Positions 130-12,783 of a DNA stretch of 64,000 nucleotides are shown here, piece after piece. This stretch comes from Candidatus Woesearchaeota archaeon. GTDB taxonomy: Archaea; Nanobdellota; Nanobdellia; Woesearchaeales; UBA11576. The position numbers were made by a program, and so were the translations under genes. The notes beneath the pieces are model-generated. The model did not search any database and was not told the origin of the DNA. It saw nothing but the letters and a program-made list of their open reading frames with translations. Every line of letters starts with the position of its first letter. Position 1 is the first letter of the stretch. Location: NCBI GenBank assembly GCA_018668595.1, contig JABJCP010000035.1, forward strand, positions 62,001-126,000. The letters are read 5' to 3'.

Positions 130-1176
130 ATGAACCAAACACAAACAACACAAAAATTAACGCAAAACAATTTTGCTTTAAAGAAACTCAAAGGCATCAA
201 GCCTAAAGGTGTTAAAACTAAATCTAACTCTAAACTTGAAGTTCTTCTTAATGTTGAAAAACAAGTTGTTAAAAGAACTGAGTTTTATATTGACGATTTG
301 GGTTTATCTACGAAGATTATGACTGATTTACCTGTTGCAAAATTATTTGTTGATGAAGCAGTTCATAAATATTTGATTAATTTTGATTATTCAACTAATG
401 ATCTAATTAGTTATCTTCAAGCTAAGTCTGTTGAAGAGCATCCAAAAGTTGGCATTGCGCAGGGTTTATTCACAGGATCGTTACTATCTCTTTTAAATCA
501 AAAAAACAGAGAAAAAGGAAAAAGAACTATTGTTTATTTTGATGGTAATGGTTGTAAATTTGATAATTTATTTTTAATGGCAAAACATTCTGATATTTTA
601 ATTCTTAATAATTTGAAAGGAGATAATATTTGTAAAGGTATTGCGAGTAATTCTGGACGTGCAAATATTTTGGTAGGATCAAACATTGTTGGTAAGAATT
701 GTTTTATGTCTGTTGGATCATCTAAGGGTTATTGTAATTTACTGATTGGACAAAACGTTACTAATAGTGACAATTTTAATTTTCTTAGATCATTTGCTAA
801 TGAAGAGGGCGAGTTAGATATTGTTATTGCAGATAATTTTCCTGATTATGTTGTTATTACAGGCGCTTTACTCGATGCACCTCGTGCTAATTTTCTTTAT
901 ACTTCAAAAATGGTTTTGAAAGGAACTGATGATTATCCTAAATCTAAGTATGCTTCTTTGGTTAGTGTTATCGAATCTAAATCAACTTCCAGTCCCAGAT
1001 CTAAATCTACGTTTAATAGTAAATATTATCCTGAAAAAATTGAGCAGTACAAAAATAAATTCAGAGTTCAAGAAATGCTTGATTTAGTTGATAAAATCAA
1101 TACTGAATCAGATGAAAAAAAGATAAAACTAATTTTAGAATTAGAAAAAATTTACAAAGATGTTAAAACATATTAA
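130..1176 (+). CDS. Tag-plus-solenoid family protein, 348 aa
   Basis: Tag at residues 16-29 behind a Gln/Thr-rich start; core D138-G-N-G, then FDNLF. The first coil begins NLKGDNICKG, the second NIVGKNCFMSVG, and about four coils can be read before the sequence becomes irregular. The tail (KYYPEKIEQYKNKFRVQEML onward) is very close to that of the member at 3391, while the middle parts differ, so these two share a C-terminal module. The start has no Shine-Dalgarno sequence; it is preceded by A-rich DNA. Function unknown. Confidence 0.93.
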   Translation: MNQTQTTQKLTQNNFALKKLKGIKPKGVKTKSNSKLEVLLNVEKQVVKRTEFYIDDLGLSTKIMTDLPVAKLFVDEAVHKYLINFDYSTNDLISYLQAKSVEEHPKVGIAQGLFTGSLLSLLNQKNREKGKRTIVYFDGNGCKFDNLFLMAKHSDILILNNLKGDNICKGIASNSGRANILVGSNIVGKNCFMSVGSSKGYCNLLIGQNVTNSDNFNFLRSFANEEGELDIVIADNFPDYVVITGALLDAPRANFLYTSKMVLKGTDDYPKSKYASLVSVIESKSTSSPRSKSTFNSKYYPEKIEQYKNKFRVQEMLDLVDKINTESDEKKIKLILELEKIYKDVKTY

Positions 1177-1195
1177 AATATAAAAGAAAAATAAA

Positions 1196-2356
1196 ATGAA
1201 TCAAAAACTATCACTTAAAAAACTGCAAGGCATCAAGCCCAAAGGAGTTAAACCTAAAGGTTCCTCTGCACTTGAAAAACTTTTAGCTTTTGAAAAAAAA
1301 TACGTAGAAGAGTTTGAAGGTCATAAAGTTTTAATTGATTACGCAGGTTATATTCCTCATGGTTCTGTACCTGATTATGCTAATTTTAGAGAATTATATT
1401 CTGATCTTTACAGAATGGTTGAAAAAGATACTAATAAAATGGATTTCAATAATAATTTATTAGAATCATATATAGAATCTTCATTAATTCTAGAAGAATC
1501 TTCTGAAGAAGAAATATATTCTGACTATAAAGTTATTAGAGGTTTGTTCTCAGCTACATTATTACAATTACTTACATTCCAGAATGAAAAAGAAAACAAG
1601 CCTACTAAGTTTCATATTGATGGAAAAGGAAAAACATTTGATTATTTATTTGCAGGTTGCAGATTTGTTGACGAATTAATTGTTGAAAACTTTAAAGGAG
1701 AGGGTATTTGTTCTTATTTAGGTTCTTTTGGTTCTATTAATTCTTTTACTGCTGTAAATATTAATGGTGTTTATGCTCTTAATGAGTTGGGTATGAATGC
1801 AAAGGATATAGGTTCTGTTATTTTAACTAATATTCAGGGAGAATATTCTGCTTATACTTTATTAAATAACGCAGAAAATATTGAGTCGTTTCTTGCGTTT
1901 GATATTCAATCAGACAATGTTCTTTTTGCAATTGGAAGTGATTCTAATTTTGGTTTTGTTTACCTTGATGATATTTATGGTCATGAAACAACTTTAAGCG
2001 CAGCATTTAATCGAACCAGTATCAAAACTTTATTTATTGATTCTATTGAAAATGAATCATTTGAAGAAGAAGGAGATATTGATTCGTTTAATCATTCTCA
2101 GGTTGACTTAACTATTTTTTATCATGACGACGATGAAGCTGTTGAAGAAAAAATAGAGGAGTTATTTCGTACTAAAACTTGGAACAATTTGCTTTCATAC
2201 GCGAGAAATCCTGAACTGTTAGATAAAACTGTTGAGCAAACAGGTTATTCTAAACTAAAAAATTTACTTTACGAATTAAAAAAAGGAGAAGACACACAAA
2301 CCACTATTTCGGAAATAAGAAATATTGCAAAACCAATAGATAGTCCAATAAAATAA
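1196..2356 (+). CDS. Tag-plus-solenoid family protein, 386 aa, acidic
   Basis: Tag at 6-19 after the short start MNQKL, which is shared only with the member at 4433. The helical region is unusually acidic (ILEESSEEEIYSD). Core D142-G-K-G is followed by about five coils (NFKGEGICSYLG, NINGVYALNELG, NIQGEYSAYTL and two looser ones). The tail ends PIDSPIK and lacks the usual LYxxIK ending. Separated from its neighbours by 19 and 21 nt of A-rich DNA. Function unknown. Confidence 0.92.
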   Translation: MNQKLSLKKLQGIKPKGVKPKGSSALEKLLAFEKKYVEEFEGHKVLIDYAGYIPHGSVPDYANFRELYSDLYRMVEKDTNKMDFNNNLLESYIESSLILEESSEEEIYSDYKVIRGLFSATLLQLLTFQNEKENKPTKFHIDGKGKTFDYLFAGCRFVDELIVENFKGEGICSYLGSFGSINSFTAVNINGVYALNELGMNAKDIGSVILTNIQGEYSAYTLLNNAENIESFLAFDIQSDNVLFAIGSDSNFGFVYLDDIYGHETTLSAAFNRTSIKTLFIDSIENESFEEEGDIDSFNHSQVDLTIFYHDDDEAVEEKIEELFRTKTWNNLLSYARNPELLDKTVEQTGYSKLKNLLYELKKGEDTQTTISEIRNIAKPIDSPIK

Positions 2357-2369
2357 AAATTAAAAAAAC

Positions 2370-2434
2370 AAAACAAAATGTTACAAACAACAAAAGCAAA
2401 TCAAGCAAATGAATCTTTTGCACTTAAAAAACTG
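2370..2434 (+). repeat. 65-nt perfect direct repeat, copy 1 (leader and gene start)
   Basis: Bases 2370-2434 equal bases 3383-3447 exactly. The copy covers 8 bases before the ATG and the first 19 codons up to KKL, and stops at the first base that differs in the tag. The two genes differ widely further down. Confidence 0.95.
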
Positions 2435-3370
2435 CATGGCATTAAGCCCAAAGGAGTTAAAGCTAAATTAGCATGTTCTAATTTTGAACTTTTGGTAGAT
2501 TGTTATGATTTTTTTATAGATTATTCTTCTGATACTTTCAAAATAAAAAGTAATGCTACTATTTTTGATGATCTTCATAAATTTAAATCTAAAAATTATG
2601 GTTTGATAAAGCAAAAGTTAGAAAATGTTTTATTCACAAAAAATAATTTAGAAGAATTTATTCTTGCAAAGTCAAATCAAGATTATCTTGAATTTGAAAG
2701 AGCAGTTGTTGCTGTTTATTCAGGTATTTTAATTGATTTGTTAACTGAAAGAAATAAATCAGAAGATAAATCTACTTCTTTTTATTTTAATGGTAATGGA
2801 AATAGGTTTGACCTTTTGTTTTTTGGTGCAAAAAATATTGGTGAATTAATTGTTGATAATTTTATTGGGGAAGGCATTTGTTTATCAGTTGGTGCTGATA
2901 ACGGAAAAGTAAATCTTGTTGCAGCAATTAATTGTCATCCAGAATATGGTCTTTTTGGTTTTGCAGGTATGGATAAAGGAGAAATAAATACTTTAATTGC
3001 AGTTGGCTGTTCAGGAAAAAATACGTTTATAAATTCAAATATTAGAGGTGGTAAAACAAAAAATTTGGTTTTTTTGAATAATGATTTTGATTTTGAAGGA
3101 CAGTACAGAAATGATGTTACAGGAATACCTTCTAAGATAGAGCATGCTGAAAATTTTTATTATTCTAATGCTTGCATATCTAGTAATGTTTCAGACATTG
3201 TTGAATTTTCTATAGGGTCAGATAATTATAGGAATCGCAAGTGGATTGATGCAAATATGCCTCAATTAAATGAACTTGCAAATGTTGTTGCTAATGGTTC
3301 TGAGCAAAATAAAATTATTGCAGTAAGAAAAATTCAATATTTAATAAATGGAGTTAATAATTACAATTAA
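2378..3370 (+). CDS. Tag-plus-solenoid family protein, 330 aa
   Basis: Start MLQTTKANQANESF, then tag at 15-28 with His instead of Lys/Gln (KKLHGIKPKG). Core N138-G-N-G and RFDLLFFGAKN lead into about four coils (NFIGEGICLSVG, NCHPEYGLFGFAG, GCSGKNTFINSN). The first 57 coding bases and the 8 bases before the ATG are identical to those of the next gene, although the bodies differ. This is a recent copy of the 5' end alone or a gene-conversion tract. Confidence 0.93.
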   Translation: MLQTTKANQANESFALKKLHGIKPKGVKAKLACSNFELLVDCYDFFIDYSSDTFKIKSNATIFDDLHKFKSKNYGLIKQKLENVLFTKNNLEEFILAKSNQDYLEFERAVVAVYSGILIDLLTERNKSEDKSTSFYFNGNGNRFDLLFFGAKNIGELIVDNFIGEGICLSVGADNGKVNLVAAINCHPEYGLFGFAGMDKGEINTLIAVGCSGKNTFINSNIRGGKTKNLVFLNNDFDFEGQYRNDVTGIPSKIEHAENFYYSNACISSNVSDIVEFSIGSDNYRNRKWIDANMPQLNELANVVANGSEQNKIIAVRKIQYLINGVNNYN

Positions 3371-3382
3371 AAATTAAAAATT

Positions 3383-3447
3383 AAAACAAAATGTTACAAA
3401 CAACAAAAGCAAATCAAGCAAATGAATCTTTTGCACTTAAAAAACTG
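3383..3447 (+). repeat. 65-nt perfect direct repeat, copy 2 (leader and gene start)
   Basis: Second copy of the repeat at 2370-2434. The spacing between copies, 1013 bases, is one gene length. Confidence 0.95.
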
Positions 3448-4431
3448 AAGGGAATAAAACCCAAAGGAGTTAAAACTAAATATACAACTCCTCTAGAATT
3501 AATAACTAAAGCGGGAAATAAATTAATTAATGATATTAAGTCTAGAGAACTTTCTCATTTAGTAGATTGTATAAATGTAGTTCCTGAATTTAACCAAGCA
3601 TATTTGAGGGTGAAGGATTTTGTCGACCATAATCTGCCTGATTTGGATTTTACTGTTGATGATTTGAAATCGTATATACTAGCTCACTCTAAAGTTGATT
3701 TACCTTCTAGAAATGCTCCTCTTGGTTTGTATACAGGAGTTCTTCTTTCACTTCTTTGTATGCAGAATAAAGAAAAAGGAGAACGGACTATTTTTTGTAT
3801 GGATGGTCAGGGTGAGTATTTTCCTTATTTGTTCTTCTTGGCAAATCAGGTTGATGTTTTAGCTTTAAATAATTGGAAAGGTGATTGCATTTGTAGGGGT
3901 GTAGCGGGATTTGGAGGTCAGGCAAATATGGTTATTGGTTCTAATTTAGAAAGTATTGATGGTTTTAGAGACATGGGGTGTGAGGGAGGTAGTTCTGGTT
4001 TAGTTATAGCTAAAGAAGGAAATCAAACAGTTGATATTTGGCTTAATAGTTTACTTGCAGTTAGCTCTGGTTATTCAGACTTGCTTATTGTTGATAATTT
4101 TAAAGGTATTCTATTTGCAGGTAAAGAAGATAACAATCCTGCCACAAAATTCTTGTGGACTTCATCTGCTGCAGAACAAAGTGATTTATCAACTGAAAAA
4201 TATATTGAGTTGATTACTGTTGCAAGAAAAGATTTAGAAACTAATCATTTGAAAAACATAACATTTGTAGATAAATATTACCCCGAACAGGTAGAAAACT
4301 ACAAAAAGAACTTCAAAGTTCGAGAAATGCTTAATCTAGTCGACAAATTAAATTCAGAACCTGAAAACAAGCAGGTCGAAACTGTTTTACAATTAGAAAA
4401 AATCTACAAAGAGGTTAAATATTTAGAATAA
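3391..4431 (+). CDS. Tag-plus-solenoid family protein, 346 aa
   Basis: Tag at 15-28 in the GGA-ATA-AAA synonymous form, unlike its 5' twin at 2378. Core D138-G-Q-G is followed by FPYLFFLANQ and coils NWKGDCICRGVAG and NLESIDGFRDMG; the next ones are irregular. The tail (KYYPEQVENYKKNFKVREML) pairs with the member at 130. So the gene is a mosaic: front end like 2378, back end like 130. A single A separates its stop from the next ATG. Confidence 0.93.
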   Translation: MLQTTKANQANESFALKKLKGIKPKGVKTKYTTPLELITKAGNKLINDIKSRELSHLVDCINVVPEFNQAYLRVKDFVDHNLPDLDFTVDDLKSYILAHSKVDLPSRNAPLGLYTGVLLSLLCMQNKEKGERTIFCMDGQGEYFPYLFFLANQVDVLALNNWKGDCICRGVAGFGGQANMVIGSNLESIDGFRDMGCEGGSSGLVIAKEGNQTVDIWLNSLLAVSSGYSDLLIVDNFKGILFAGKEDNNPATKFLWTSSAAEQSDLSTEKYIELITVARKDLETNHLKNITFVDKYYPEQVENYKKNFKVREMLNLVDKLNSEPENKQVETVLQLEKIYKEVKYLE

Positions 4432-4432
4432 A

Positions 4433-5554
4433 ATGAATCAAAAACTTTCACTTAAAAAACTAAAAGGCATCAAGCCCAAAGGAGTTAAGGTTAAACCTAG
4501 TTCTAAACTTCAGTCTATGATTGAGTTAGAAAAGAAAGTTGTGGACAGGTATGGCAAACTTGAATATGAATTTCCTACTAGTAGCGCTCTTAGTTGTGAG
4601 TTTAAAGAAGAATCTTATGGTAATTTATATAGGAGATTTGAGCCTGAATTTGAAAAGTCAAATTTTTCAAAACAAGATCTTGTTAATTATGTTAATTATT
4701 GTTTTGCAGACGATTCTTATGATACTCCGTCTGAATTAATAGTCAGGGGTTTTTATTCTGGAGCTTTGTTAGAGTATATTAGTAAACAAGCTAAACAACG
4801 AGATGAATATTTGTGTTTAGAAATCAATGGAGAAAATAATTCTTTTGATCATTTATTTGCATTTGCAAGAAATCCTTGTGATTTATTTTTAGAAAATGCA
4901 ACTGGACGTAAAATTTGTGAAAGGTTTGGTTTTCATTCAGGATTTAATAATTTAGCATTGTTCAATATTTCGGGAGACAACATAGGTCATGTTTTAGGTG
5001 CTAATTCAGAGAAAGGAGGAAATATTATTTTAAGTAATATTTCTGGAAATATGTTATTTGAAGGAGCACTTGTTGGAACAAACATAAATTCCCTTACTGC
5101 TTCAGATATTAAAGGATACTGTTTTTCTCAGGGAGCTAACTTGTTTGATTTAGATTTAATTATATTAAAAAATGTTTTAGATGTAGCAGGGTTATCTTTT
5201 TATTCAACAGAGGCAGATGTTGTTTGTTTTGAAAATGTTTCATCAAAAGATCTAATCAGTGCAGAGAATGATTTCAGGATATTTAGAGAGTCATATATTC
5301 ATTTACTTCTTTCAAAAAACTTATCTTCTAATTTGGATGAGCATTTCACTTTACAATTTGGTTCGTCATTTAATGATTCTACAAGACATGAAGATTTACC
5401 CAAAAGTTTTAATTTCCACAAAAGATATTTAGGAATTAATACAATTTTAAATTTAGTAAAAAATTATAAAAAGTTCGAAGACAGGTCTGATTTTTTTAAA
5501 AGATTTGATGAGTTAAGAGTTAGTTCAAAAAATAAATTTGAAAAACGACTTTAG
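4433..5554 (+). CDS. Tag-plus-solenoid family protein, 373 aa
   Basis: Tag at 6-19 after MNQKL. The core is reduced: N132-G-E-N replaces GxG, then SFDHLFAFARN. About five coils follow (NATGRKICERFG, NISGDNIGHVLG, NISGNMLFEGAL, DIKGYCFSQGAN). The tail is divergent and basic (SSKNKFEKRL). The stop is TAG, then 21 nt to the next start. Function unknown. Confidence 0.92.
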   Translation: MNQKLSLKKLKGIKPKGVKVKPSSKLQSMIELEKKVVDRYGKLEYEFPTSSALSCEFKEESYGNLYRRFEPEFEKSNFSKQDLVNYVNYCFADDSYDTPSELIVRGFYSGALLEYISKQAKQRDEYLCLEINGENNSFDHLFAFARNPCDLFLENATGRKICERFGFHSGFNNLALFNISGDNIGHVLGANSEKGGNIILSNISGNMLFEGALVGTNINSLTASDIKGYCFSQGANLFDLDLIILKNVLDVAGLSFYSTEADVVCFENVSSKDLISAENDFRIFRESYIHLLLSKNLSSNLDEHFTLQFGSSFNDSTRHEDLPKSFNFHKRYLGINTILNLVKNYKKFEDRSDFFKRFDELRVSSKNKFEKRL

Positions 5555-5575
5555 CATGGCTTAATAGAATAAAAA

Positions 5576-6964
5576 ATGACGCAACAACAAACACAACAAG
5601 TAAAAAACATACAAACAGTTCAAACTAGTTTTGCGCTTAAAAAACTGCAAGGCATAAAGCCTAAAGGAATTAAGGTTAAAGATGATTCTGCATTTGGATC
5701 TTTAGTCGATGTATGTAATTCTATTTTTGATGCAGATTTAATTATTGAAGATTTTATGGGTAGAGTTAATAATCATGGAACTTTTTCTAATATTAGAGAT
5801 TATTCTGCAGAAAATTTAAATGAGGTGAATTTTAATAATGCTGATCTAACTAATTTTATTTTTTCTAGAATTAATTCTGATTGCGATGAATTAGAAGCTA
5901 AAATAGTTGGCATGTATTCATCTGCACTTTTGGAAATTTTAACTGAAAATAATAGAGAAAAAAATCTAAGTACTAGATTTTATATTAATGGAGACGGTAA
6001 TGAGTTTGATTATTTATTTTTTGGTGTTTGTAATTTTGATGAATTGATTGTTGATAATTTTAAAGGAAATAATATTTGTGAGGGTGCATGTAGTGGAGGA
6101 AATACAGGCAATTTTTTAGCTTTGCTCAATTTAGAAGGAGATAATATCGCTGAGGGTATTGGAGGAGGTAAACGGCAAATTTTAGAAACAGGAGAATATG
6201 TTGGAGGTCTTAATCATTTAGTTGTTTCGGGGTGTAATTCGTCTAGAGTTTGTGATTATATGGCGGGAGGAGGTTATATTGGCACTTGTTTATTTTTAGA
6301 TAATAAAAAAGTGGAAAGTGTCGGTTACATGGCTATAAATCATCTTGGAACTATTGATTCCTTAATTGCGTACAATAACAATTTTTCTGCTAGATTGTTT
6401 CCCAATATTGGTTCTAATGAGTCTTATATTGGTTTATCTATTTTGGAAGATAATGTTTCATATGATACAATATTTTCTGATTTTTCTCAGGGTAATGTTA
6501 AGCTACGTTTATTTGATTTAATGGTTTTAAGAAATAATATCTGTAATACTTTATTATACAACTCAGGATTAGAGTCAAGACCTTCTGGAAAAATTATTGC
6601 TTCAGGCAATCAAGGTTTTAGAATGACTGTTCCTAAAAAAACATCTGTTGCTAATGATTATTTTGTTCGTAAGGATAATGATTTTATGAGTGTTGAGGAT
6701 TTTGATCGTAATTGTGTTGAACAGGAAAATAGAGTTGAACTTTATGATTCTGTATTATCTGAACATAGAATAGATGATGTTATGTGTATTGTTAAGTCAA
6801 TTAATACAGATGATCATGATGATATGATTCAAAAAGTAAAACAGATTGAGGCAATTAGGAATCAAACCAAGCACTTGTATAAAAATACTGGAATGATTCA
6901 ATATTCATCAAACGCTTTTCAAGATGAGAAACTAAAAAAGGAAATATTGGAGAAATTCAAATAA
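5576..6964 (+). CDS. Long tag-plus-solenoid family protein, 462 aa
   Basis: Second longest member. A Gln-rich start (MTQQQTQQVKNIQTVQTSF) precedes the tag at 20-33 and is nearly shared with the member at 7011. Core N138-G-D-G, then about seven coils, some with insertions (NFKGNNICEGAC, NLEGDNIAEGIG with a ten-residue insert, GCNSSRVCDYMAGG, NKKVESVGYMA, NNNFSARLFPNIG). After the tail helix it has an extra C-terminal extension ending EILEKFK. A 46-nt A-rich gap follows. Confidence 0.92.
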   Translation: MTQQQTQQVKNIQTVQTSFALKKLQGIKPKGIKVKDDSAFGSLVDVCNSIFDADLIIEDFMGRVNNHGTFSNIRDYSAENLNEVNFNNADLTNFIFSRINSDCDELEAKIVGMYSSALLEILTENNREKNLSTRFYINGDGNEFDYLFFGVCNFDELIVDNFKGNNICEGACSGGNTGNFLALLNLEGDNIAEGIGGGKRQILETGEYVGGLNHLVVSGCNSSRVCDYMAGGGYIGTCLFLDNKKVESVGYMAINHLGTIDSLIAYNNNFSARLFPNIGSNESYIGLSILEDNVSYDTIFSDFSQGNVKLRLFDLMVLRNNICNTLLYNSGLESRPSGKIIASGNQGFRMTVPKKTSVANDYFVRKDNDFMSVEDFDRNCVEQENRVELYDSVLSEHRIDDVMCIVKSINTDDHDDMIQKVKQIEAIRNQTKHLYKNTGMIQYSSNAFQDEKLKKEILEKFK

Positions 6965-7010
6965 TAAACAAAACACAAAACAAAATAAAAAATAGAATAA
7001 AAAAAACAAA

Positions 7011-8120
7011 ATGATACATCAACAAACACAACAAGTACAAAACATTGAAACAGTTCAAAATAGTTTTGCGCTTAAAAAACTGAAAGGTATTAAACCTAAA
7101 GGAGTTAAAGCTAAAGATAAATCTAAGTTAGAACATTTAATTAATTTAGGAATTGATACTGTTGATAGGTGTGGTCATTTAAATTCTCAAGATGATATTC
7201 TTGATTATATTTATTGGAATGTTAAACGTTCTGCAGGTGATTACAATGAGTCTGATTTAAAGCAAACTGTTATGGCATTATCTGTAACAGAGTTGAATAG
7301 TGAAAATTATGTCGTTGGTTTTTACACGGGTGCGCTTCTCAGTAATTTAACCGAAAGAAATAGAGCGAAAGGTAAGAGAACTCAGGTTTGTATTGATGGT
7401 GATGGCATGACTTTTAATTATTTGTTTAATCATGCAAAACACGTTGATGATTTAATTATTAAAAATTTCGAAGGAACTGATATGTGTAGTCAATTGGGTC
7501 GTGAGGGAGATGTTGATTTTGTTATGGGTTCAAATTTATCAGGTTTTGGACCTATGGATTTGTTAGGTATGAATGGTTCTGTTAATTTTGTTATTGCAAA
7601 AGATATAGAAGCGAATTCACCTTTGTTTCGTGTTGCCGAAAATGGTTCTTCAAAATTTATTGCAGGAATTAATTTAATTGATGGGATGATGGGAAACACA
7701 TTTGATGTTGGAGATTCTGATCTTGCTATCATAAAGGATTGTTATTTTAAACAAATTATTGATCGTAATCAATGGAATCGTAAAGCAAATGTGGTTTATG
7801 TCGACTCAATTAAGGGTAAGTTAACTCTTTCAGAATATAACGAGCCTAATGTTGGAACTTGTATACATACAGATAATAGTGGTGAGTGGTTTGAGAGAAA
7901 ATGGTTTGAGAAAACAATAAGCGCGAACAGAATTATCTCCGATTCTAATCAAGAAGAATTCACCAACGCAGTTAAACAATACAAAATTAATCAACTATTA
8001 GAACAGATTAACTTAATAGATGAAGCTCCAGAACAAGATGTTTTCAAACACGTCGACGAATTCAAAAAGATTTACTATTCAATAGAGCCTTTATTAAAAA
8101 AAGCAGGCATTAAAAAATGA
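7011..8120 (+). CDS. Tag-plus-solenoid family protein, 369 aa
   Basis: Start MIHQQTQQVQNIETVQNSF resembles the previous gene; tag at 20-33. Core D129-G-D-G, then NYLFNHAKHVDDLIIKNFEG. About four coils (NFEGTDMCSQLG, NLSGFGPMDLLG, DIEANSPLFRVA, NLIDGMMGNTF). The tail ends YSIEPLLKKAGIKK. The stop TGA overlaps the next ATG by 4 nt, showing both that TGA is a stop here and that translation may be coupled. Confidence 0.93.
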   Translation: MIHQQTQQVQNIETVQNSFALKKLKGIKPKGVKAKDKSKLEHLINLGIDTVDRCGHLNSQDDILDYIYWNVKRSAGDYNESDLKQTVMALSVTELNSENYVVGFYTGALLSNLTERNRAKGKRTQVCIDGDGMTFNYLFNHAKHVDDLIIKNFEGTDMCSQLGREGDVDFVMGSNLSGFGPMDLLGMNGSVNFVIAKDIEANSPLFRVAENGSSKFIAGINLIDGMMGNTFDVGDSDLAIIKDCYFKQIIDRNQWNRKANVVYVDSIKGKLTLSEYNEPNVGTCIHTDNSGEWFERKWFEKTISANRIISDSNQEEFTNAVKQYKINQLLEQINLIDEAPEQDVFKHVDEFKKIYYSIEPLLKKAGIKK

Positions 8121-9010
8121 ATCAAGCACAAACAAAACAAAACACCCGAGCAAGAGAAACCTCGCAACCCCTACAAAATAGTTTCGCACTCAAAAAACTG
8201 CAAGGCATCAAGCCTAAAGGAGTTAAAGCTAAAGATAATTCTAATTTAGAAAATTTGTTAAATATATTTGATATGAATTGGAGTGATTTTTTAAAAAGCA
8301 GGATCAATTTACCTAGAGCGCATATTTCAACTACAGAATGTTTAGATCTTAAACGAGAAACTAAAACTTATTACCCTCAAATTAATTATTCAGAATCTGA
8401 TTTGATTTCGTTTATTTTTAGTAAATCGCGTCCAGAAGATGCAATTTATTCAGAGTATGTTGGCATGTATACTTCGGCTTTACTAGAAATGTTAATTGAA
8501 TCAAATAAAAATGAAGGAAAGCGGACTGTTTTATATTTGGATGGTCAGGGTAATGATTTTCCTTATTTATTTTATCATTTGAATGATATAGATATTCTTA
8601 TTTTGAATAATATGTCCAGTTTTAATTTGTGTTATAACTTTGGTTTTCCAGGTGGGAAAAAAATTAATATGTTAATAGGTATTAATATTGAAGATGACCA
8701 GGTTTTCAGAAATACAAAAGGTGGAAGTTCAGGCGGTCTTTTGGCAGGTTATAATATTAACGGCAGAAGATCTTTTGATGTTAAAGAAAAATCAGCTGAG
8801 TTTGATTGGATTGTAGGCGAGAATGTTTGTGGAGGAAATTCGTTAATGTTGATAAATAAGTTCGCGTGTTCTTTTGATGAACTAAATTATTCTGCAAAAC
8901 AAGTTATGAGTTTAATCAAATCAATTCCCAAAAAAAGTTACGATGAGGTCATAAAGACTGCACTCAAAATTGAATCTATTTACAAATCCATATTACCAAA
9001 AGAAGAATAA
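8117..9010 (+). CDS. Tag-plus-solenoid family protein, 297 aa
   Basis: The N-terminal extension before the tag (24-37) is long and carries charged residues (KQNTRARETSQ). Core D142-G-Q-G and FPYLFYHLNDIDILILNN lead into three to four coils (NMSSFNLCYNFG, NIEDDQVFRNTKGG, NINGRRSFDVKEK, NVCGGNSLML). The solenoid is short and joins the tail directly (YNSAKQV region, IESIYKSILPKEE). Followed by a 59-nt A-rich gap in which I see no clear promoter. Confidence 0.92.
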   Translation: MNQAQTKQNTRARETSQPLQNSFALKKLQGIKPKGVKAKDNSNLENLLNIFDMNWSDFLKSRINLPRAHISTTECLDLKRETKTYYPQINYSESDLISFIFSKSRPEDAIYSEYVGMYTSALLEMLIESNKNEGKRTVLYLDGQGNDFPYLFYHLNDIDILILNNMSSFNLCYNFGFPGGKKINMLIGINIEDDQVFRNTKGGSSGGLLAGYNINGRRSFDVKEKSAEFDWIVGENVCGGNSLMLINKFACSFDELNYSAKQVMSLIKSIPKKSYDEVIKTALKIESIYKSILPKEE

Positions 9011-9069
9011 TTAATAAAAACATAATCTAAAAAAACTAAAAAACAAAACATGCAAAGAACAAAACCAAA

Positions 9070-10002
9070 ATGAACCAAACACAAACAAACACTAACTTAG
9101 CTTTAAAAAAGCTAAAGGGAATTAAACCTAGAGGAATCAAAGTAGATACTTGTAGTTCAACTAATAAAAAACTCCTAGACATTGGTGTTGAAGTCATTGA
9201 TATTTTCAGTAAAGATTCCCAATTTCATATTGCAGATAGGGATGATAATGCTGATGAATACTATTACAAAAGTTTAACTGAATTTTTAGATGATAAAATT
9301 AAATTCAACTTCAAAGAATCTGATTTAGAATTTTTTATTTATGCAAATTGCAATCAGGATTATTCTAGTGCAGAGTATGGTTTGATGGGTATGTTTTCAG
9401 GTTGGCTTTTATCAACTTTAACAAAAAGAAACAAACAAAAAAACAAGCCAACGACTTTTTACATTAATGGAAGAGGTATGACTTTTAATCATTTATTCCT
9501 TAGAGCGAATGAGATTGATGAATTAATTGTTGATAATTTCAGAGGAGATTATTTATGTAATAGGTTAGGTCATATCGATGGAAATGTAGATCTTGCTGCA
9601 ATTATTAATTGTTCTGCAAACAAAAATCTTGGTGAATATTTTTGTTCAGTTAGAGGAAAAGGAAATGCTTTAATTGTTGCAAACTCTTATTCAAAAACAA
9701 TTTGTTGGGGTGTTTCAAGTCATTATGGAAAAACCAATAAAGTTTTTTTCATAAATTTAAAAGGAGATCAAATTGGAGATTGTTCTTGTTTTCCTGATGG
9801 CACTGTTGATTTATGTATTGAATACAATGTCCAACGGGAAAATATGGGTGCTGGGGGTATTGAAGCAACTAAACCATACAAAAATAATCATTCAAAAAAA
9901 TTGTTCCCACAACTCGGTGATTATGCTCAAATATTGTCAGAATCTGACGATAAAAATCAAAAAATAAATATAATTAAACAAATATATAACTTAATGAGGT
10001 AG
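9070..10002 (+). CDS. Tag-plus-solenoid family protein, 310 aa
   Basis: Tag at 11-24 is a variant (LKGIKPRGIK), and its DNA uses other codons (AAG-CTA in place of AAA-CTG). Core N133-G-R-G, then MTFNHLFLRANEIDELIV. Coils: NFRGDYLCNRLG, NCSANKNLGEYF, NSYSKTICWGVS, NLKGDQIGDCSC. The closest relative is the member at 26720, of equal length, with matching coils such as VDLAAIINC against VNLAAIINC. The stop TAG lies inside the ribosome-binding region of the next gene, 6 nt before its ATG. Confidence 0.93.
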   Translation: MNQTQTNTNLALKKLKGIKPRGIKVDTCSSTNKKLLDIGVEVIDIFSKDSQFHIADRDDNADEYYYKSLTEFLDDKIKFNFKESDLEFFIYANCNQDYSSAEYGLMGMFSGWLLSTLTKRNKQKNKPTTFYINGRGMTFNHLFLRANEIDELIVDNFRGDYLCNRLGHIDGNVDLAAIINCSANKNLGEYFCSVRGKGNALIVANSYSKTICWGVSSHYGKTNKVFFINLKGDQIGDCSCFPDGTVDLCIEYNVQRENMGAGGIEATKPYKNNHSKKLFPQLGDYAQILSESDDKNQKINIIKQIYNLMR

Positions 10003-10008: not shown

Positions 10009-12108
10009 ATGTCTGATGAAAAAATAAATGCAACAAATGTTATTGAAGTCACTGGCGATGATGGCCAAACGCATGAGGGAAAGCAAGATATTATGGATAA
10101 TATTAAGCGCTTGACTGAAATTAATGAAAAGGTAGCAAAGCATGTACAATATATTGAAGATCACAAAGATGAATTAGAAGAAAGAATAAATTCTATTTTT
10201 GAAGATGTTAAAAATGAGTATTATCGTCCGCCTATTTCAGGTCCTGATTTAATTTGGGAGTTTGTGCAGGAATCAGGTAAGGGTACTGCATACTTTGATT
10301 TTATGGAATCACGAATTGGAGCAAATGTTCCTTTTTTATTATTGTTAGAAGAATATCAAGATTTTGAATCTGTAACTAGAGGTTTGTTTGCTCATGAGTT
10401 TGGGCATTATAAAAATCATCCTATGAACTTGAGCCTAAGTTTATATCTTAGTTATTGGGCGCAAAAAACTTTTGGAGATTATGGTTCTCAGATTTATCCG
10501 TTGTATACTGATTTTCAGGATAATACAATTATTGAACTCCAAACTAATTTTGAAGAAAACTTAAAAGATTTATTGAGGTCTACGTGGGAGATTAGTTCAA
10601 AAGATGCAGTATCTTCTGCATTAATGGAAGGGTATAATCATTTTTTCAAAGAGTTAAACATAAACACAGATCTTGATCGTTTTGAACCAGAAATGCGTGA
10701 AAAAATTGATGAGGCAATTGTTACTTTGAAAGATTTTACTAGAACCTCGTCTCAAGATTATGGTATGCAATATGCATTATTAAGAAGTTTCGGCAAAGCA
10801 ATCAAGCCTTTAATGCCTAAGCCAAAAGAAAACTGGGTTAAATCTTGTGAGAGTAGTGGTCAAAGTGGATCTGGAAAAACTAGGCCTTGTCCTGATAAGG
10901 GAGGTCCTGATTGTTCTGGAACTTGTGGTGGTAAAGGAACTCAATCTGGTCAAGGAAGTGGATCTGGAAATCCGATGGACGATCTTCTTAATGGAAAAGG
11001 AGGAGGATCAAGCATGATAACTCCTGAAGATATTAATAATCTTCCTCAACATAAACGTCAAAAAGTTAAAGAAGCAATTCAAGAACTTGTTAAAAAACTT
11101 AATAGAGGAATTTATGAAGATGTTAAAGATCATTTTTTAGGTAAGGACAAAGAAGAAAAGAATGATTCGTCTAAAGGGGTAGGTATTGGTTTAGATCCTA
11201 CAGATTCTGTTGGTTTAGCAGATCAAAAAACTATTGCGTATTATACTGATTGTGCTAGAGCCTTTGGTATTTATGTTCGTCCGAGGAGAACTTTGAGTAT
11301 TTCTTCTGTTGATATTCCATTTGGTAAGCGAGAATTTAGACCTAGTGATCAGACAATGGGTATTGATATGCGTTTTTCAGGTGGTAAGATATTGCCTGGT
11401 TTAACACAGATTACTAGAAAGGAACCAATTCCATTTCCAGCGACGAGAGAAATTATTCCAAGACTTGTAATTTACAAAGATGCATCAGGTAGTATGAGAA
11501 ATCCTATTCAGGAAAAATGTTATGGTACTATTGCAGGTTGTGTTCTTGCTCTTAGTTATCTTCGTAGTGGTGGAGAAGTTAATATTGCAGTTTTTGACGC
11601 TGCAACCACTGAACTTTTTACTAGCAGAAAAGAAGAAGAACTTTTAGCTTTGCTTTGCGGTTACAAAGGTGGCGGTACTGTTGTTGACATGGAAGCACTA
11701 AAAAAAGATTTAGAAGGAAAAGATAGTGCGTATTTACCTATGGATCGTAATATTACTGTCGAGGAAGCTAAGCGTAATCCGTTGTTTAGAAAGTATTTGA
11801 AAAAACAAGCTCGTATTTCAGGTTATGAAAAAATTAAATCAGGGCAGTTAACAGATTTTGTCATTATTACTGATGGTGGTATTGCAAATCTTGATGAGAT
11901 GATGAGTTTCTTTGAAGCTAATTCAGAAAAATACAGGCCAACAATACTTCACACAGGAGGTTTTGACCTAAGTGTAGATGGTTATGATGGTAAAACATCT
12001 GGAATTTTTAAAGGCACAGCAATCTATGCGGCACACACCAGAGAAGACATAATCAACATGACCAAGAAAACTATGCAGAATAATTTATTATCAAAATGCC
12101 AGAGATAA
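10009..12108 (+). CDS. Putative zinc metallopeptidase with C-terminal VWA domain, 699 aa
   Basis: The only non-family gene in the window. Residues 128-139 contain AHEFGHYKNHPM, an HExxH zinc-binding and catalytic motif (H129, E130, H133); an acidic cluster DFQDNTIIE at 168-176 could supply a third ligand. A linker at about 284-340 is rich in Gly/Ser and has four Cys. A VWA domain follows, with a complete metal-binding (MIDAS) set: DASGS at 491-495, T557 in GGGTV, and D622 in ITDGG. The order metallopeptidase-like domain then VWA recalls the predicted metal-dependent peptidases of COG3864 (DUF2201 plus VWA-like), though this protein is longer; that match is from memory. No MoxR-type ATPase, their common partner, is present. 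No signal peptide, so probably cytoplasmic. A role in processing or assembling the family proteins is only a guess from position. Confidence 0.85.
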   Translation: MSDEKINATNVIEVTGDDGQTHEGKQDIMDNIKRLTEINEKVAKHVQYIEDHKDELEERINSIFEDVKNEYYRPPISGPDLIWEFVQESGKGTAYFDFMESRIGANVPFLLLLEEYQDFESVTRGLFAHEFGHYKNHPMNLSLSLYLSYWAQKTFGDYGSQIYPLYTDFQDNTIIELQTNFEENLKDLLRSTWEISSKDAVSSALMEGYNHFFKELNINTDLDRFEPEMREKIDEAIVTLKDFTRTSSQDYGMQYALLRSFGKAIKPLMPKPKENWVKSCESSGQSGSGKTRPCPDKGGPDCSGTCGGKGTQSGQGSGSGNPMDDLLNGKGGGSSMITPEDINNLPQHKRQKVKEAIQELVKKLNRGIYEDVKDHFLGKDKEEKNDSSKGVGIGLDPTDSVGLADQKTIAYYTDCARAFGIYVRPRRTLSISSVDIPFGKREFRPSDQTMGIDMRFSGGKILPGLTQITRKEPIPFPATREIIPRLVIYKDASGSMRNPIQEKCYGTIAGCVLALSYLRSGGEVNIAVFDAATTELFTSRKEEELLALLCGYKGGGTVVDMEALKKDLEGKDSAYLPMDRNITVEEAKRNPLFRKYLKKQARISGYEKIKSGQLTDFVIITDGGIANLDEMMSFFEANSEKYRPTILHTGGFDLSVDGYDGKTSGIFKGTAIYAAHTREDIINMTKKTMQNNLLSKCQR

Positions 12109-12158: not shown

Positions 12159-12375
12159 GAAATATTGGTCGTAGCTGCAAATTAAAAAAGCAGCACTGCC
12201 TTGGCAAATTAGTTGAATGCAAAGTATTCAATTGTTTCAAAGCAAAGCTTTGATGATTTCAACGACGAGCGTGGCAAGTTGTTGAGTTACTGCAGAAAAT
12301 CTGGTGATTCATGCAACCAGATTTTCGAAATGTAAAATCCAGAGGATTTCATAAACTGCCGCAGTGCTGCAAAAA
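12159..12375 (+). ncRNA. Structured element A: stem-closed cluster of hairpins
   Basis: GCAGCACTGC at 12190-12199 is perfectly complementary to GCAGTGCTGC at 12361-12370 and would close a domain of about 180 nt. Inside are hairpins at 12211-12233 (8 bp with one G-U), 12237-12253 (7 bp, AAA loop), 12296-12325 (10 bp, 10-nt loop) and 12335-12349 (6 bp), plus a weaker one at 12259-12285. A five-base GCTGC at about 12174 could pair with GCAGC at 12190 instead of the closing stem. No tRNA, RNase P or SRP RNA signature is recognised. The strand is assumed from the flanking genes; DNA-level function is also possible. Confidence 0.45.
12201..12285 (+). repeat. Imperfect 15-nt direct repeat inside element A
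   Basis: TTGGCAAATTAGTTGA (from 12201) and GTGGCAAGTTGTTGA (from 12271) share TGGCAA and GTTGA with a 70-nt offset. They may mark two related halves of the element. Confidence 0.4.
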
Positions 12376-12483
12376 AGAAAATAAATCAAAACAAAATAAC
12401 AACAATTCAAAAATCACATTTCAAATTTTTTAGTCACCAAAAAAAGAGGTTCTTTCACGTATAGCATCAGGTATATCACATAT

Positions 12484-12540
12484 CATATACTAAACGCTAT
12501 GCAAAATTTGTAATTTAATCAAATTTAGCGTTTGTATATG
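12484..12540. other. Long imperfect hairpin of 21 bp
   Basis: CATATAC at 12484-12490 pairs with GTATATG at 12534-12540, AAACGCT at 12492-12498 with AGCGTTT at 12527-12533, and AAATTTG at 12504-12510 with CAAATTT at 12520-12526. The breaks are a one-base bulge (12491) and a five-base bulge (12499-12503); the loop is 9 nt. CATATAC could also pair with GTATAT just upstream (about 12471), giving a competing fold. Confidence 0.7.
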
Positions 12541-12543
12541 CTG

Positions 12544-12571
12544 ACGAAAAGTGCCAAAAATCACTTTTCGT
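12544..12571. other. Perfect 10-bp hairpin
   Basis: ACGAAAAGTG at 12544-12553 and CACTTTTCGT at 12562-12571 are perfectly complementary around an 8-nt loop. It starts 3 nt after the long hairpin. No T-run follows on the + strand, so it does not look like a classic terminator. Confidence 0.75.
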
Positions 12572-12589
12572 TCATCACGTTTACGTGTT

Positions 12590-12693
12590 TGCATTGAGGG
12601 AAGTAGAGTTAACTACTTAGAGTCTTTTATATTCTAGACCTCGCCCGGGTCAAGACTCTAAAGACGACATTCTCTTCCCTTTTTGCAGACGTG
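12590..12693 (+). ncRNA. Structured element B: closed domain with two inner hairpins
   Basis: TGCA at 12590-12593 with TGCA at 12684-12687, and AGGGAA at 12597-12602 with TTCCCT at 12675-12680, form an outer stem. Inside are AAGTAG/CTACTT (12601-12606 and 12613-12618) and TTAGAGTCTT/AAGACTCTAA (12617-12626 and 12652-12661), the latter capped by a GACC/GGTC mini-stem around CCCGGG. CACGT at 12576 could extend the outer stem with ACGTG at 12689. Adjacent stems share two bases, so not all can form at once. It could be an RNA gene, a 5' untranslated control element or a DNA structure. Confidence 0.4.
12625..12633 (+). promoter_or_regulatory. TATA-like AT stretch, possible promoter
   Basis: TTTTATATT sits about 150 nt upstream of the first gene of the long downstream run. 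It resembles an archaeal TATA box, but it also lies in the loop region of element B, and AT-rich words are common here. Weak call. Confidence 0.15.
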
Positions 12694-12783
12694 TACCTAA
12701 ATAAAAAAAACAGAAAATAAAAAACAAAACAAACAAAATCAAACAAGAAGGAAAAAATAGAAATTAAAAAAACAAAACAAAAA
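12694..12783 (+). other. A/C-rich leader before the gene at 12784
   Basis: Ninety bases dominated by A with AAACAAAAC-type words and almost no secondary structure. Short versions of the same composition (TAAAATAAA, AAACAAA) precede nearly every family gene, so it is probably an unstructured 5' leader. Confidence 0.5.

Follow-up and report, generated by a model that had tools for sequence, protein, structure and literature searches.

The spacer behind a VWA-like gene in the window (the whole stretch of 64,000 nucleotides of Woesearchaeota DNA analysed here) carries a member of a family of folded elements that had not been named before. We give somewhat better than even chances to the reading that this is a new dispersed structured RNA family of Woesearchaeales, a 3'-UTR module spread by mobile elements and selected as sense-strand RNA. 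The fold is conserved among many copies, abundance is specific to lineages, and some copies are carried by transposons. In the genome of origin of the window (hereafter its own genome), the long form of the element lies directly behind stop codons and in sense orientation, a placement established statistically. The first-pass annotation, which had pointed to a candidate structured RNA in this spacer, was right but understated: the element is dispersed, multi-copy and partly mobile, and a shorter form exists in other Woesearchaeales.

The candidate had been placed at 12159-12375. The element does lie inside this span, but the edges (12159-12189 and 12371-12375) are flank and the element proper occupies only 12190-12370 (Table 1). 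The perfect 10-bp pairing of ends about 170 nt apart is present, GCAGCACTGC (12190-12199) with GCAGTGCTGC (12361-12370), with 171 nt from start to start. Four or five local hairpins had been noted between these arms; five fold, and one of them, H4, has a perfect 10-bp stem (AAAATCTGGT/ACCAGATTTT, 12296-12305 with 12316-12325). Against 200 dinucleotide shuffles, the + strand of the element reached an MFE of -72.2 kcal/mol versus -48.3 +/- 3.9 (z -6.15), and the - strand reached a z of -5.0. Dozens of copies show the same fold with compensatory changes, which takes the structure beyond chance, as had been claimed.

Table 1. Features of the element and its upstream gene (positions in the window).
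Feature	Position	Strand	Observation
Upstream host gene, VWA-like protein	10009..12108	+	stop 81 nt before element start
Long-form element	12190..12370	+	fold z -6.15; CM R1 203.6 bits at 12187-12374; ~54 copies in own genome
P1 outer stem, 5' arm GCAGCACTGC	12190..12199	+	partner 12361-12370; double-sided changes in 7/10 pairs, 39 copies
3-nt bulge CTT (CUU), invariant	12200..12202	+	inside long-form CCTTG; CCTTGG invariant in 52 short-form copies (partly imposed by search pattern)
P1b, 5' arm GGCA	12203..12206	+	partner TGCC 12357-12360; helix 2, 100% paired
Hairpin H1, only in long form	12210..12234	+	double-sided changes in 5/7 core pairs
Hairpin H2, only in long form	12237..12253	+	double-sided changes in 4/6 pairs
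Hairpin H3, only in long form	12257..12286	+	helices 6-7; sense-strand G-U 24 vs A-C 3
Hairpin H4, core	12295..12326	+	covarying pairs 8/8 long form, 9/9 short form; 23 different stems in 39 copies
Invariant H4 loop GATTCATGCA	12306..12315	+	GATTYATGCA invariant in 52 short copies, nearly so in 39 long
Hairpin H5	12335..12349	+	double-sided changes in 4/7 pairs; 99.3% of cells paired
3' arms of P1b and P1 (TGCC and GCAGTGCTGC)	12357..12370	+	fold and pairing check

The element was correctly located between the VWA gene and a long run of genes, in a spacer that extends from the end of the VWA ORF (12108) to the next ORF start (12784); no ORF of at least 80 aa lies in the element itself. The VWA-like protein itself is without a Pfam match at E 0.01. 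Neither in the window nor in the long- and short-form loci did any Rfam (release 15) family reach its gathering score over the element, and relaxed thresholds likewise gave nothing. A tRNA search over the element was also without a match, and CM R1 detected no second copy elsewhere in the window. The same spacer harbors another element, at 12470-12700, which folds even better (z -8.84 versus -6.15); DNA comparison with its own genome and 19 relatives revealed no related sequence. On both sides (130-10002 and 12784-63502) runs a tandem series of paralogues, all on the + strand, at least 47 of them with the N-terminal motif LKKLKGIKPKGVK; four examples were scanned, with no Pfam match.

BLAST with the spacer against its own genome returned 42 matching stretches, the query itself among them; the others are 68-82% identical, and nearly all stay within the element and the flank next to it. 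Iterated nhmmer on the fetched loci gave 44 matches, 42 of them above 100 bits and most over the full model length (182). CM R1, built from 39 long copies, gave 54 matches in this 2.3 Mb Woesearchaeales genome, about 5 of which are weaker short-form ones. Pairwise identity among copies ranges from 0.56 to 0.88 (median 0.71). In the 39-copy alignment, double-sided changes that keep the pair were found in 38 of 52 pairs, and 96.5% of cells are paired. None of 500 shuffles matched the long form on any of the five measures used, and the signal was gone when the partner was shifted by 1-3 columns. Compensatory changes in homologues, which had been put forward as a check and whose absence, along with that of a transcript, had been named as grounds for refutation, are therefore present. 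With this strong covariation and the absence of an Rfam match, the proposal of a structured RNA candidate of no known class holds.

The H4 stems are hypervariable, nearly all of the 23 variants being fully paired around the invariant loop, and G-U intermediates are few in both the long- and short-form alignments. The multi-helix fold and two invariant unpaired motifs have been kept despite very fast stem turnover. In some long copies, a further hairpin module of ~50 nt is inserted in the loop of H4 or H5. Inspection by eye led us to reject a kink-turn or C/D-box RNA, whose box-like stretches fall inside stems, and a pseudoknot between the H4 loop and the linker TGCA, as the linker varies while the loop is constant.

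The short form, ~95-105 nt long, was found in several other Woesearchaeales genomes. Its parts follow the order P1, CUU bulge, GGAG/CUCC, H4 and H5, and the long form inserts H1-H3 between P1 and H4. The core common to both forms consists of a perfect P1, the invariant 3-nt CUU bulge, H4 with its 10-nt loop GAUUYAUGCA, and H5. Short copies vary little in the spacing from CTTG to the H4 loop, and 24 of 28 of their pairs covary, a level reached by 0 of 500 shuffles. Both CCUUGG and GAUUYAUGCA are invariant in 52 short copies, although the invariance of CCUUGG was partly imposed by the search pattern, which also includes the H4 loop. Conservation of this loop in the long copies is independent, since BLAST and nhmmer, which do not use the pattern, retrieved those copies.

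A pattern search of the genomes of ~85,000 species yielded 75 loci. Model R2 was built from 52 short copies, which match by construction, and gave 66 matches in the pattern-search loci. It gave no match in the bacterial loci among them, so that no bacterial locus was confirmed; this silence is informative, although 52 of the matches exist by construction. The first match in one genome (L065, G096) looks like chance, with repeated simple hairpins and the conserved loop missing. Among the 371 genomes of the phylum scanned, matches were obtained in 11, all of one order (a lower bound, given the strict filters). Almost all named relatives in which the element occurs are Woesearchaeota assemblies, and every positive genome in the kinship searches belongs to the same order. 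Read by eye, the 16S gene of the window's own genome starts in the manner of archaeal ones. A viral origin was rejected: 85 pattern loci were found in viral contigs, and the model confirmed none of the 82 scanned. No phage match was found for the long form and no plasmid match for one short copy.

The placement of the long form in its own genome is strongly biased. In spacers between co-directional genes, 26 copies are sense and 3 antisense to the genes (p 1.5e-5), and copies lie between convergent genes eight times and between divergent genes once; these counts rest on simple ORF calls. The long copies start at a median of 15 nt past the stop codon of the upstream gene. For the short form, the orientation bias was seen in JAGVYP (12 versus 2), and there was none in JACWAN and JAJPEB. 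The genes that precede the copies are not related to one another (adenylosuccinate synthase, pyruvate kinase, a class II tRNA synthetase, UvrC, ABC ATPases and others), and a common function was discarded, as no Pfam family is common to them. The flanks are A-rich, with an A fraction of 0.60 versus 0.44 in other spacers, and the 3' flanks are T-poor (A 0.60, T 0.22). An intrinsic terminator, in which a T run follows a G+C-rich hairpin, does not fit these 3' flanks. Because the flanks are A-rich, the orientation could reflect a target preference; A-rich, T-poor flanks fit either this or unstructured RNA linkers.

In the sister species G002, of which ~1.7 Mb was covered in separate stretches, a single copy was found, compared with ~54 in the own genome. 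For 13 element-bearing spacers, both neighbors have syntenic orthologues in G002 and the element is missing there; the single G002 copy is in none of these spacers. Formally, G002 could have lost its copies, but gain is the more economical explanation.

Some short copies lie between inverted repeats: L234, L236, L238 and L240 in the own genome, and L192, L194, L206 and L217 in JAGVYP. The terminal inverted repeats of the MITE-like copies L192, L194, L217, L236, L238 and L240 are GGCTAATATGAA and GGTAAAGTCAAGTT. Target duplications of 9 bp are exact in L194, L217, L238 and L240 and match at 8/9 positions in L192 and L236, so that these copies display both terminal inverted repeats and target-site duplications, as MITEs do; in L234 and L206 the duplications are not clear-cut. 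Numerous contig ends carry the terminal repeat of the own-genome group, and some of them lead into an IS that shares this repeat and has a transposase-like N-terminus; its interior is missing where the contigs stop, and the transposase family was judged by eye. An IS with ends GGCTAATATGAAATCC breaks the own-genome assembly at many contigs (e.g. L268, L275, L276, L282), and a hairpin stands ahead of the IS start codon. The H4-loop module, common to both, links the MITE copies to the long copies. For the long form, no excess of target duplications over shuffled flanks was found at k = 5, 8 or 9, a comparison whose power is limited by the A-rich flanks. Three alike short copies in another genome (L047, L049 and L051 in G007), with flanks conserved past P1, are probably another mobile subfamily.

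Base-pair changes bear on which molecule is selected. On the sense strand, G-U pairs outnumber A-C pairs 48 to 12 in the long form (p 3e-6); in the short form the counts are 20 to 11, a non-significant excess. A slight bias towards G-U comes from having predicted the structure on this strand. The scarcity of G-U pairs overall (1.5-2.6%) and the non-significant excess in the short form leave room for folding at the DNA level. Folding is better on the sense strand in 36 of 39 long and 40 of 52 short copies, and composition accounts for about half of the difference in folding energy in the long form and for none of it in the short form. We judge RNA more likely than DNA to be the selected molecule, short of proof. 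A selfish non-autonomous DNA element, which would need single-stranded DNA hairpins for mobility and owe its orientation to A-rich target strands behind genes, is an unlikely explanation that still deserves weight: it would account for the MITE-like copies with their duplications, the IS with matching ends, the few G-U pairs, the A-rich flanks and the 54 copies versus one in the sister species. However, the long form lacks target duplications above shuffles, the sense strand has more G-U than A-C pairs, and the same core occurs within two unrelated terminal-repeat types, so that it is not a transposase end.

The compact self-contained fold with its invariant loop and bulge would also suit a set of independent, trans-acting small RNA genes, every one with a promoter of its own, but a median start 15 nt past a stop codon leaves little room for promoters and the copies are numerous and lineage-specific; we attach only a slight probability to this explanation. 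That the long form moved through RNA, in a retron- or group-II-like manner, agrees with sense-biased placement behind genes and the lack of target duplication, and is slighter still in probability, as no reverse transcriptase (PF00078) was found in the own genome, which is ~90% complete. Finally, position and orientation behind stop codons recall attC-like recombination sites of gene cassettes, folded as single-stranded DNA behind each gene, and archaea, among them Nanoarchaeota, are known to possess integrons (PMC9668308). The core sites RYYYAAC/GTTRRRY are present at the ends in 0 of 91 copies (0/39 long, 0/52 short), and the copies are dispersed, with neighbors syntenic with the sister species; the missing core sites largely refute this explanation, to which we grant scarcely any probability. 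Over all loci, the RYYYAAC pattern is too short to be informative.

As a 3'-UTR module selected as RNA, the element is probably a fold for protein binding, with a role in protecting or marking the 3' ends of mRNAs. Its transcription would occur as part of the upstream mRNA, in the 3' untranslated or intercistronic region, and there the fold and the two unpaired motifs, CUU and GAUUYAUGCA, may bind a protein. The protein-bound fold would protect or mark the 3' end, and copies landing behind genes would therefore be tolerated or kept. Tentatively, and with more doubt than conviction, the element might be viewed as an archaeal counterpart of SINE-like elements: a transposon-hitch-hiking RNA module with its fold under selection, providing a common protein-binding 3' end for dozens of unrelated Woesearchaeales mRNAs. 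If it acts as RNA, transposition would have spread a 3' regulatory module to dozens of unrelated genes of a single archaeal lineage. The open-access literature yielded no account of such an element.

Among known systems, integron attC sites are also folded elements directly behind a gene and in gene orientation; they differ by their core sites, missing from the 91 copies here, and no cassette arrays were seen. Dispersed prokaryotic repeats are mostly simple palindromes, whereas the element here is a multi-helix fold. Bacterial REP, BIME and REPIN sequences are likewise extragenic, structured and present in many copies (PMC2817692, PMC3116915). PMC3733652 describes REPs as single small palindromes of 20-40 bp; the element here, in contrast, is a multi-branched structure of 95-240 nt with an invariant loop and bulge. 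RU is an enterobacterial intergenic MITE-like repeat (PMC2759123). MITEs resemble the element in being short, non-coding and present in many copies, and in some short-form copies inverted repeats and 9-bp duplications are present, as is an IS whose ends match. They differ in that a covarying multi-helix core is here common to different terminal-repeat types, and in that the long form is without target duplication. ERIC and RUP are intergenic MITE-like repeats as well. Compared by description, RU, ERIC and RUP are similar intergenic repeats of 100-170 bp, but these are bacterial, whereas the element described here was found in a single archaeal order.
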